DNA of 44,329 nucleotides, from contig JAKORJ010000067.1 of the NCBI GenBank assembly GCA_029777885.1, forward strand, positions 1 through 44,329, read 5' to 3'. This document shows positions 4,951 through 14,516 of the stretch, in pieces; within the stretch, counting starts at the first letter, position 1; every line of letters begins with the position of its first letter. The stretch is from Bacillota bacterium (GTDB lineage: Bacteria; Bacillota; Clostridia; Caldicoprobacterales; DTU083). The notes beneath the pieces are model-generated. The model saw only the letters and a list, made by a program, of their open reading frames with translations. It was not told where the DNA came from and made no database searches. The position numbers were made by a program, and so were the translations under genes.

Positions 4951-5200
4951 TAAAAAAATCCCTTCATCCTCAATAGGGACGAGAGACTGAACTGCCCGCG
5001 GTACCACCCCGGTTGGAGGCCTTTAAACCTCCCGCTTTTAAAATAACGCATTAATGCGGACCTGCCTACTGCCCTTTTCAGCAGATCTGCTCATGAGTGT
5101 CCTTCCCCGGTACTTTCCGCAAGAGATACTTTCAGCCGCGGTACCTCCTCTCTGATGCTTCCGTATCAGGTACTCTCTCAATCATCGCATAAATATGGAT
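4951..5200 (-). promoter_or_regulatory. T-box leader (histidine) of hisS-aspS
   Basis: The minus strand contains the T-box core GGTGGTACCGCGGG (5008-4995). Upstream is a Stem I region with an AGTA motif and an AGAGAG bulge. Downstream is a terminator-like element, TCCCT...AGGGA followed by seven T (4979-4952). In the expected specifier region the RNA reads ACACTCATGAG (5100-5090), which contains both histidine codons, CAC and CAT. Only CAT is followed by a purine, as is usual for T-box specifiers. Uncharged tRNA-His should stabilise the antiterminator and allow hisS transcription. The class is certain from the core; the exact specifier is inferred. Confidence 0.93.
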
Positions 5201-10138: not shown

Positions 10139-12652
10139 TCAGTGATTACTCGTTTGTATCAATCCAGCTAACCACGCCCTATGGAATGCAAACATCCTGC
10201 TTTCGGCAAGCTTTCTGCTTATCGGGTTCTTCACGCAGTTTACCCTGATGAATTGTGTACCCGATTCAAGGGCTATGAAATTGAGCTCTTTAAAAACTTG
10301 CAGGGCGAGCAATAGCTGAAAGCTGTTCAGTTCATGCCCTGTATCTGCCTTGAAACTGGCTGACAGGTGGCAGGTACCGGTCCAGAAGTTCCTGCCTGGC
10401 TTGGCGGCACGCAGCCATTTGTAGAAGGCCTCGAACTGCTCGCGGGTAAGGTCCAGGTCCTCATGATAAGGCCTATCATTCGGTGGCATGCCGTCCGGTT
10501 TTATTATGCAGTGTTTCCTATCCACGCAAGCACTGGATCTGCGTATCCTTTCCGCGAATCCGGCTTCGCTGCCGGGTACCATGATAGTATGATAGTTTTC
10601 AGCAGGAAAAACCGTCGTGTCCGGAGCTAGTAGTATAATGTTCCTCCCCGCGCCGTCTTCGATGCACGGCGCATTATACCTGACCACAACGTCATTCAAA
10701 ATGCCATGGCTGAGCAAACCCCCCAGCAGGGCCCTGGCTGCGCCGGGCGTGTGGACCAGCACCGCAACGCCGAACTTGCAGGACCTCAGCATGGCGCAGA
10801 AGTCATCTATGCCAATTTCCACAAGGTCATTGCCTGTTCCTGCTGTTACTGGAATTTCTGGAGTAACTACATTACCATTATACATAAATTCAGCAAAAAA
10901 GGCATTAAAAAGTTTGTCATAAAACATCTCAAGCAGCTTCTCGATATCTCCCTGGCTCCGATAGGACCTGTCCAGGCTGTGGATCTGGAACTGGGTAGTG
11001 CTTACGCCCATCCATTCATTCAGTTTCAACGAAACCAGCAGGTCAACCTCGCATCCCTGCTGCAGCTCGTTATCCAAAGCAGCCAAATTGAACCCTATCG
11101 CATCCCAGGACCTTTGCCCCAGTCCCAGGGCAAGCTTAAGGTGTTTATCGTCCTTGCCCAATAGCCTTCGGCTTTCAATGGATGCGGACCTAATCAGAAA
11201 CTTGGGTACCGGATTTCCAAAGCCGAATGGGGCAAGCATGTCTATCTCCCTGTGCAGGTCCGGTGTGATATCCTCAGGTCTGAGCGGCCCGTCATAGAAG
11301 TACCGGGGAAGCATAAGGTCTTCATTTATATTTTCATCTGCATACTCACATATTCTTTTTCTGAAGGCATCTATGTTTCCGGCTGCCAGTGACAGGCCGG
11401 CCGCCTGCTCGTGGCCGCCGAACCTGGTCAGCAGGTCGCTGCAGGACTTTAGTGCCTCATAAATATTGAAGCCCTTGATGCTCCTGCAGGAGGCCGTACC
11501 TACACCGTCATTGACTGAGATCAACACACAGGGCCGGTTGTACCGCTCAACCACCCTTGACGCCGCGATGCCGATGACACCGGGATGCCAGCCTTCTCCA
11601 CAGACCACGATCACTTTTTCCCGGGCGGGATCCACCTGATGCTTTATGTTTTCAAAAACAGAAGTGATGATTCCGTTTTCTGCTTCCTTGCGAGCATTAT
11701 TCTCCGCTGCCAGGGCCTCTGCTGCAGGAATGGCTTCATCCAGGCTGTCAGCAGTAAGGAGCTCAAAGCCTTTTCGGAAGCTCGACATCCTGCCCGGCGC
11801 ATTGAGACAGGGCGCTATCCCGAAAGAGATCCTGCCTGCATCGATGGTGCCATCCTCATAGCCCAGCGCCCTTGCCAGGGCTCTGATTCCCGGCCGGGGT
11901 CTCTCATTTATGGCCTTAAGGCCAATGGCCGCCAATATACGGTTTTCCCCTGTCAGAGGGACCACATCGGCTATCGTGCCGATAGCGGCCAGATTTATGT
12001 ATTTCTCGACCTCACCTGTCCCCCCGATGGCCTGGATCAGCTTCAGGGCGACGCCGACGCCGGCCAGGTCTTTGAAAGGATAAGCCTGCCCTGGCTGCTT
12101 GGGGTTTATGACCGCATAGGCTTCCGGCACAATATCGCCCGGGTTGTGATGGTCGGTAACTATGATATCCAGGTAAGGCTTCAAGGCATATATCTCATCT
12201 ATGGCCGAAATACCGCAGTCGACCGTGATTATAAGCCCCGCTCCCTGCTCCTTCAGGGATTGCAGGGCATCCAGATGCAGGCCGTAGCCCTCATCCTTCC
12301 GGTTTGGTATATAGATGTCCACATCCGCGTTTATGGATTTGAAGTACAGGTAAAGCATCGAGGTTGAGGTCACGCCATCTACATCGTAATCGCCGTATAC
12401 TATGATTTTTTCCCTGCTTGCAATAGCCCTTTTTATCCGTTCAACGGCCTTGTCCATTCCGGACAGAAGATAGGGGTCATGTAGCCGGCTCAAAGCCGGA
12501 TTGAGAAACTCCCTGGCTTCCTCCGGTGTCGTTATTCCCCTGTTCACCAGCAGCCTGGCAGCGACCTCGCTTATGTTGAGCTCATATTTCAGCATAAACA
12601 CTGCGCTGTCGATATTATTGAGCGCAGGCTTCATAAGTTCGTAAACAGCCAT
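10139..12652 (-). CDS. recJ: Single-stranded-DNA-specific exonuclease RecJ
   Basis: A DHH/DHHA1-family 5'-3' ssDNA exonuclease of 837 residues acting in recombination and mismatch or base-excision repair. The first metal motif DYDVDGVTS is near residue 87, VDCGIS follows, and the family-defining VTDHHNPGD is near 165. The DHHA1 domain shows GGHEQAAG around residue 415. The protein exceeds the roughly 570 residues of E. coli RecJ because of a C-terminal extension of about 270 residues of the kind seen in long Firmicute RecJ proteins. The ATG has GAGGGG upstream. A terminator stands 24 bases before the start, so how recJ is transcribed is unclear. Confidence 0.95.
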
Positions 12653-12675
12653 CTAAACCCCTCATGTAAAATCAT

Positions 12676-12706
12676 CAAAAAGAAAAGCTTCTCAATCGGA
12701 AGCTTT
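12676..12706 (-). terminator. Rho-independent terminator upstream of recJ
   Basis: On the minus strand AAAGCTTC pairs perfectly with GAAGCTTT (12706-12699 and 12691-12684) around a seven-base loop and is followed by TCTTTTT. It would end the transcript from the promoter at 13094-13122, which otherwise contains only the riboswitch and the sortase remnant. The rest of 12707-12787 is AT-rich with no gene visible. Confidence 0.75.
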
Positions 12707-12787
12707 AGATTGCATCTTTATTATATTATGATATCGTGCCAATAGTAAAGTACGACACAAAGGTTTGTTCCAACAGGCCTTAGCAGT

Positions 12788-12970
12788 TTAGGTTTGGCTC
12801 CGATGGGCGGCCAGGACTGAGCTCCCTATGCCGCCCGGCTCGGAGGTGTCGGTTATATGCCCTACCCCTACCTTAAGATTGGTTATGCAAGTGCCCTCCA
12901 GAATGGGGATATTTGCATTGAGCTTGGAAGAAACTCTTAAAACAAGCAAGGCTGCAAGATTAAATAATTT
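12788..12970 (-). pseudogene. Sortase remnant (class D-like), truncated
   Basis: The minus-strand frame ending in TAA at 12788 encodes a stretch recognisable as the centre of a sortase: NIPILEGT, then LKVGVGHI, then GIGSSVLAAHRS. The His in AAHRS matches the catalytic histidine. The reading frame stops three codons later, so the TLxTC cysteine and the catalytic arginine are missing, as are a membrane anchor and a proper start. The same frame runs back without a stop into the riboswitch aptamer (to a TTG at 13006), which is not a credible start. I read it as a gene fragment left by deletion. About 60 codons remain of a family that usually has 200 or more. Confidence 0.75.
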
Positions 12971-13069
12971 AACCTGCAGCCTGACGATCATGGTACTATC
13001 CAACAAACAGATAATACGGTAGACTCATAGCTTTGCGTCCTATACTTTCGTATAGTTTGCCTACATGTT
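12971..13069 (-). promoter_or_regulatory. Cyclic di-GMP-I (GEMM-I) riboswitch
   Basis: The minus strand shows the hallmark GGCAAAC, then a perfect six-pair hairpin CTATAC-GAAA-GTATAG with the conserved GNRA loop (13055-13040), then GGACGCAAAGCTA. The second stem follows (TATTATC...GATAGTA), then the receptor side ACCATGATCGTCAGGC. P1 pairs AACATGTAG (13069-13061) with CTGCAGGTT (12979-12971) with one mismatch. These are the conserved features of the class I c-di-GMP aptamer. The next coding remnant is a sortase fragment; c-di-GMP riboswitches are known to control surface-protein and sortase-linked genes in Clostridia. Confidence 0.9.
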
Positions 13070-13093
13070 CAGTTTTAGTTTCTATTTATATCC

Positions 13094-13122
13094 ATTATAT
13101 GGACACGTTAATCAAATGTCAA
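13094..13122 (-). promoter_or_regulatory. Consensus sigma-A promoter for the riboswitch transcript
   Basis: TTGACA (13122-13117), a 17-base spacer and TATAAT (13099-13094), identical to consensus. Transcription would start near 13087, about 18 bases before the aptamer's P1 stem. A full match suggests a strong promoter even though the downstream gene is decayed. Confidence 0.85.
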
Positions 13123-13166: not shown

Positions 13167-14516
13167 TCATTCTTCGAAGGTTTCCAGGGCCTTTATCGCA
13201 AGGGCGCACTCAAGGCGCTTTTTCTCCATCTCGCAGCCCAGATCATAGGGCTTGTCGATCGAGCCGTTGAAATGGAAAGCATTTGCAGCGCAGCCCCCGC
13301 TGCAGTAGAATTTCGCCCAGCAGGACGCGCATTTTTCCTTTGTGAAAACATTGGTGCCCCTGAACCGCAGCTGCTTTTCCCGGTCAAAGGAACCGTCCAC
13401 CACGCTGCCCATCCTGTATTCCTCATCCCCTACGAACTGATGGCAGGGATAGATATCTCCCCTGGGCGTAACCGCGATATATTCATTTCCGGCACCGCAG
13501 CCCGTGGACCTTTTTGCGGCGCATGGACCCTGGTTCAGGTCGACCATGAAGTGGAAGAAGTTGAAGCCCCGGCCTTCCTTCCGCCTTTTTATATAGGCCT
13601 CTGCCAGCCTGCCGTAAGCGGCGAAGATATCCTTCAGATCCGCCTTGGTCAGGGCATAGTCCTCGCTTTCCGGCGCAACGACAGGCTCTACGGATATCTG
13701 CTTAAAGCCCTGGTCTGCCAGGTGGAGGACATCCTTGTCAAAATCCTTGTTGAATCTCGTAAAGGTGCCTCTAACATAGTAGTTGTTCTGGTCCCGGCTG
13801 TCCGCCAGCCTGAGCGCCTTGGGCGCTATTATGTCATAGCTGCCCCGGCCCGTGCAGGTCTTACGCATGCTGTCGTGCACCTCTGGACGGCCGTCGATGC
13901 TTATGACTACATTCACAAATTCCCGGTTTATATAGTCTATGGTATCGTCATCCAGGAGCAGGCCGTTTGTGGTTATGGTGAACTTGAATTTTTTATTGTG
14001 TTTCTTCTCCAGCGCGCGGCCATAAGCCACCAACTGCTTTACGGTGTCAAAATTCATAAGGGGCTCACCGCCGAAAAAGTCAACTTCCAGGTTCCTACGG
14101 TGGCCTGAATGCCTGACCAGAAACTCCAGGGCTTTCTTCCCGGTCTCAAAGTCAAGCAGCTCCCTTTCGCCTTTGAAGTCCCCTGTGGAAGCGAAGCAAT
14201 AGGAGCAGCGCAGGTTGCAGTCATGGGCGGCATGGAGACACATGGCCTTTATGACAGGTTCGCCGGCCATGGCCGGGATCCCGCCATCCCATTCCGTATA
14301 AAGCATGTTTTCTTGTATAAGCACATTCAGCTCATCCATGGCTTCTTGTATATCGGACACCGGATATTTGCCTCTTAAGGCTTTATATACGTTATCCGTA
14401 TCAAAATCAGGCCCATGATCGAGCAGGTCCCATACGAGATCATCTATCACGTGCACGGCCCCGCTGTTTACATCAAGGACCAGCTTTATGCCATTTACCT
14501 CAAACTTATGTATCAT
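13167..14516 (-). CDS. scfB: SCIFF peptide maturase, radical-SAM/SPASM thioether-forming enzyme
   Basis: A 449-residue radical-SAM enzyme that installs Cys-to-residue thioether links in the SCIFF precursor. The N-terminal 75 residues look like the peptide-recognition (RRE/PqqD-like) domain. The SAM cluster motif CxxxCxxC is at C100, C104 and C107. The C-terminal SPASM region contains CAAKRSTGC, CHQF and CASCWAKFYCSGGC, which should bind two auxiliary Fe-S clusters. It follows the 45-residue scfA precursor by 140 bases, confirming the assignment. The final product and role of SCIFF are not known. Confidence 0.95.
   Translation of the reverse strand: MIHKFEVNGIKLVLDVNSGAVHVIDDLVWDLLDHGPDFDTDNVYKALRGKYPVSDIQEAMDELNVLIQENMLYTEWDGGIPAMAGEPVIKAMCLHAAHDCNLRCSYCFASTGDFKGERELLDFETGKKALEFLVRHSGHRRNLEVDFFGGEPLMNFDTVKQLVAYGRALEKKHNKKFKFTITTNGLLLDDDTIDYINREFVNVVISIDGRPEVHDSMRKTCTGRGSYDIIAPKALRLADSRDQNNYYVRGTFTRFNKDFDKDVLHLADQGFKQISVEPVVAPESEDYALTKADLKDIFAAYGRLAEAYIKRRKEGRGFNFFHFMVDLNQGPCAAKRSTGCGAGNEYIAVTPRGDIYPCHQFVGDEEYRMGSVVDGSFDREKQLRFRGTNVFTKEKCASCWAKFYCSGGCAANAFHFNGSIDKPYDLGCEMEKKRLECALAIKALETFEE

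Follow-up and report, generated by a model that had tools for sequence, protein, structure and literature searches.

The window, that is, the whole 44,329-nt stretch of DNA analyzed here and to which all coordinates refer, carries on its minus strand a short riboswitch-sortase unit between two intact genes, scfB and recJ. Read along that strand, the order is scfB, sigma-A promoter, aptamer, terminator, sortase remnant, recJ promoter-like site, leader hairpin and recJ, with the following features:

13167..14516, minus strand: scfB, the intact upstream gene, encoding the SCIFF peptide radical-SAM maturase (TIGR03974, 679.3 bits)
13094..13122, minus strand: sigma-A promoter, TTGACA-17-TATAAT
12972..13071, minus strand: c-di-GMP-I riboswitch aptamer, RF01051 (GEMM-I)
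13069..13061 and 12979..12971, minus strand: the two P1 strands of the aptamer
12949..12982, minus strand: intrinsic terminator, AGGCTGCAGGTTAAATTATTTAATCTTGCAGCCT, then TGCTTGTTTT (−17.3 kcal/mol, U-rich tail)
12788..13006, minus strand: mechanically called 72-codon open reading frame enclosing the sortase remnant, with a TTG start at 13006
12791..12925, minus strand: sortase remnant, NIPILEGT...LAAHRSQT (PF04203), with the His motif kept and the Cys and Arg region lost
12749..12720, minus strand: recJ promoter-like site, TTTACT-18-TATAAT
12706..12684, minus strand: recJ leader hairpin and U tract
10139..12652, minus strand: recJ, the next intact gene downstream (TIGR00644, 546.9 bits)

Transcription from the sigma-A promoter would start near position 13087 on the minus strand. 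An assembly artefact is an unlikely source of this arrangement; the same layout occurs in a second MAG, the sister genome JAKPIB01 (G001), which was the sole other member of the genus compared with the window’s own genome (G000). A plasmid search using the riboswitch-remnant locus gave no match. Elsewhere in the window, an ordinary T-box leader (4972..5194, minus strand, 116.7 bits) lies directly 5' of apparent hisS and aspS genes.

The initial annotation of this DNA had described a perfect sigma-A promoter and a full class I c-di-GMP aptamer with a GAAA loop and P1 pairing, and both descriptions held up. The promoter (13122..13094) matches the consensus at 12 of 12 positions, and a covariance-model scan (cmscan) recovered the aptamer, GAAA tetraloop included, over model positions 1-87 of 87 at 64 bits (E = 2.3e-10), where the gathering score is 35. 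What had been overlooked is that the riboswitch possesses its own terminator, whose 5' arm includes the 3' strand of P1, with bases 12979..12971 common to both helices. When transcripts of increasing length were folded, P1 was the outcome for 3' ends at 12965 and 12960; once the end had reached 12950, the terminator took its place. Both the shared bases and this fold series make the terminator mutually exclusive with P1, and the switch is built as a standard transcriptional ON arrangement, in which ligand-stabilized P1 blocks termination. Without c-di-GMP, the hairpin 12982..12949 would form and transcription would stop after ~150 nt, which should be the default product in place of the ~410-nt transcription unit proposed initially. 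With c-di-GMP, P1 (13069..13061 paired with 12979..12971) would hold the 5' arm of the hairpin and allow read-through of the remnant towards the recJ leader.

By alignment, the terminator hairpin is common to G001 and four family genomes, with no call in G010 by the hairpin scan. In an alignment of six orthologues, 89.7% of the cells retain its base pairs, compared with 33-59% in slid controls; support for the terminator comes from this retained pairing and not from covariation, which showed no excess over shuffles in these six near sequences. The P1 pairing is kept less well in the same comparison (72.9% of cells). The core blocks of the window’s aptamer are intact and common to the orthologues that precede complete cassettes (see below), and we infer that it binds c-di-GMP. 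The ligand is probably made in G000, because this genome contains nine GGDEF matches, eight above and one below the cut-off.

No other c-di-GMP-I aptamer was found in the 249 contigs of G000 (91% complete). That the aptamer in the window is the sole one of its genome was nevertheless set aside as a conclusion; the orthologue of a further riboswitch target known from G001 lies on a contig that stops just before the expected aptamer position. This contig end (L112, G000:C38) breaks just short of the site at which G001 carries a c-di-GMP-I aptamer upstream of a gene for a 165-aa predicted secreted protein. A further c-di-GMP-I aptamer of G001 (L053:4426-4516) lies ahead of a gene for a dCache-GGDEF-EAL protein, an arrangement by which c-di-GMP might regulate its own metabolism in a feedback loop.

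Downstream of the terminator, residues 28-69 of the 72-aa translation match profile positions 5-46 of 125 of the sortase family PF04203 with 29.6 bits (cut-off 26.6; 28.3 bits in a second search of the remnant). The sortase core does end past the His, as the initial annotation had stated, whereas its length of ~60 codons was an overestimate, about 45 being sortase-like. In intact sortases of the family, the motifs AAHR, TLITCTP (Cys) and HRLVVHAV (Arg) accompany an N-terminal hydrophobic segment. Over the shared stretch, the remnant has 52-67% identity with these proteins; it contains the AAHR part only and terminates with LAAHRSQT-stop, without the regions of TLITCTP and HRLVVHAV. Among the His, Cys, Arg and N-terminal membrane anchor of a functional sortase, the His region alone is left, and the remnant can yield no useful sortase. 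Among the NCBIfam sortase classes C, D and E, it scored best with SrtD, far below the cut-off (33.2 vs 140); we assigned no class letter because the intact sortase of the family genome G004 also stays under every class cut-off (class C, 145.5 vs 160). The 72-codon reading frame is probably not a gene because translation would have to begin at a TTG within the aptamer. The frame is not open in G001, and in the comparison of the locus no relative showed this 72-codon form conserved as a gene.

The former target of the switch can be seen in related genomes. In G003, G004, G010 and G012, orthologous aptamer-terminators lie ahead of genes for LPxTG surface proteins, and a full-length sortase gene adjoins; G002 resembles these cassettes in part. 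A transglutaminase-like gene comes next in all five genomes and has a c-di-GMP-I riboswitch of its own. These riboswitches (L055:9949-10034, L057:7691-7776, L058:2777-2862, L059:8674-8759 and L060:6584-6669) are of a second type, located directly 5' of the gene, and some of them fit the GGC variant best. No convincing terminator was found at them in the five genomes, the aptamer end continuing into AAAGGAGAG, which suggests translational control.

No intact sortase of the cassette type was found in G000 or G001. Besides the remnant, each of the two genomes contains one sortase above the cut-off, that of G000 belonging to class B. The motif LPKTGE is absent from both genomes as an exact pattern, which misses variants such as LTQTGE of G010; the exact pattern was used because a Pfam LPxTG search gave mostly sub-threshold matches, also in control genomes. 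The search for remnants of the cassette transglutaminase gene yielded weak domain-level matches only.

When named relatives were searched with RecJ, the sister MAG was the only near match. Over 6 kb, gene order in G001 agrees with that of the window (84% identity), and G001 carries a syntenic copy of the riboswitch (72.8 bits) and, at the same locus, the same sortase remnant with frameshifts and stops. Together with the full-length orthologues in relatives, this broken copy bears out the initial proposal that the sortase was largely deleted under an intact promoter and riboswitch.

In the window (12749..12653, minus strand), the recJ promoter is followed by the hairpin and U tract right past the predicted start. 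The whole segment is ~95% conserved in G001 (promoter 37/39 and hairpin 36/38 identical), and its structure is kept in G006, a member of a different genus with a RecJ of 58% identity, whose scfB-recJ gap of ~190 nt contains the recJ promoter and leader hairpin and no riboswitch. The hairpin at 12706..12684, initially taken for the terminator of the riboswitch unit, was reassigned to the recJ leader for this reason, and the recJ leader hairpin and promoter appear to be older than the insert. The leader may possibly be an attenuator of recJ. At the scfB-recJ junction, 11 other family genomes are without such an insert. Because of these 11 genomes and the recJ leader standing alone in G006, arrival of the cassette in the window’s genus, 5' of the older recJ promoter and leader, is the most economical reading.

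This arrangement raises the question of whether recJ has come under the switch, such that at high c-di-GMP polymerase would pass the remnant, read through the weak leader hairpin (−7.7 kcal/mol) and add c-di-GMP-dependent expression of recJ. The recJ gene lies ~300 nt beyond the terminator in the same orientation as the next intact gene, and with the sortase core gone it is the nearest full gene in reach. However, recJ retains a conserved promoter of its own, which the relative without the insert has as well, and the leader hairpin with its U tract stands between the switch and the gene. We also know of no link between RecJ and c-di-GMP. No positive evidence emerged for such a capture, and we consider it rather unlikely.

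Selection on the unit was assessed with the four-fold sites of five neighboring genes as a neutral yardstick, which are 65% identical between G000 and G001. The remnant is identical at 102 of 129 positions, and its differences are concentrated at third codon positions (13/41, as opposed to 10/82 at the other two codon positions; p = 0.01). Neutral evolution of the remnant since the common ancestor was rejected, as 35% differences would be predicted at the first and second positions (p = 2e-6). Because the differences favor third codon positions, the sortase was constrained at the level of its protein during much of the period after the two species separated. The aptamer is identical at 81 of 90 positions, and both promoter hexamers are unchanged in G001 within a spacer of which only 7/17 positions are identical. 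Since the remnant was coding-constrained over the same period, the conservation of the aptamer would not by itself indicate a new function, and recent cis-function could cover most of it. A hint that the RNA may still be under selection comes from 65 core aptamer and P1 bases, which show no differences, compared with the 10/82 in the remnant (p = 0.002; the core was chosen after seeing the alignment of two genomes).

The same figures bear on a second alternative, in which the terminated ~150-nt transcript would act as a free RNA, either as a c-di-GMP sponge or by pairing with mRNAs in trans in the manner of SreA. The hexamers preserved in a diverged spacer and an aptamer well above the identity of four-fold sites would fit such a role, for which the trans action of a terminated riboswitch RNA offers a precedent (PMC8079631). 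However, the comparison involves two genomes, and the codon pattern of the remnant allows the recent cis-function to explain the conservation; the trans-acting or sponge role, already suggested in the initial annotation, gained no positive evidence. Coming from a single locus, the RNA would also probably be too scarce to titrate c-di-GMP. We regard the free-RNA explanation as very unlikely. It is hardly credible that the truncated sortase core has been kept under the riboswitch as a gene for a short functional protein: the low divergence of its first and second codon positions, below both third positions and neutral sites, would favor it, but the product would lack membrane anchor, Cys and Arg and deviates at positions invariant in six intact sortases, and the gene would have no plausible start, its TTG being within the aptamer, and is interrupted by frameshifts and stops in G001. 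Taken more broadly, it is unlikely that the riboswitch has been kept by selection in the genus as a c-di-GMP-gated RNA, whether as the free ~150-nt RNA or as a new input to recJ.

We thus favor, as the likely explanation, a recently orphaned and still switch-competent c-di-GMP-I ON riboswitch, whose controlled cassette of LPxTG protein and sortase has been mostly deleted. The ancestral switch would have controlled this cell-surface cassette after its placement between scfB and recJ in the genus, and the subsequent deletion would have removed most of the cassette and left the switch complete. The unit is presumably still transcribed and presumably has no selected function at present. One observation does not fit a simple account in which the sortase was dead since the ancestor. 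The start of the remnant almost coincides in G000 and G001, around the SSKL codons of the linker; because of this near-identical start in both species, the N-terminal truncation is suggested to predate their split, which conflicts with the coding constraint after it. The two could be reconciled either by parallel deletions, by a truncated reading frame that was constrained for a time, or by misalignment of the short 5' edge.

In its architecture, the locus resembles other c-di-GMP-I ON riboswitches (RF01051), with a full aptamer, a terminator overlapping P1 and a sigma-A promoter that read in the same direction as a surface-protein or sortase locus, but the coding sequence under its control is a non-functional remnant. 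Likewise, it shares the orthologous riboswitch and terminator and a sortase of the same group with the cassettes of G003, G004, G010, G012 and, in part, G002, whereas the LPxTG protein, the full sortase and the downstream transglutaminase gene are present there and the window retains the switch and a piece of the sortase only. The locus therefore looks like an ordinary leftover soon after gene loss and not like a new kind of RNA. It offers a snapshot of a riboswitch after gene loss in which the ancestral state, a sister copy and the neighboring gene can all be compared. If further genomes show the aptamer outliving the sortase, this would be a natural test of the re-use of a riboswitch as a free RNA or of its rewiring to a neighbor.

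Riboswitches located antisense beside pseudogenes have been described (PMC9943018). In Listeria, the SAM riboswitches SreA and SreB act in trans, SreA while still controlling an intact operon (PMC8079631); a terminated riboswitch RNA could likewise exist here as a free small RNA. In Clostridioides difficile, the c-di-GMP-I riboswitch found between CD2517 and CD2517.1 is an orphan listed with no known function (PMC11477304). It belongs to the same class I as the riboswitch in the window, whose lost target is identifiable from its relatives.
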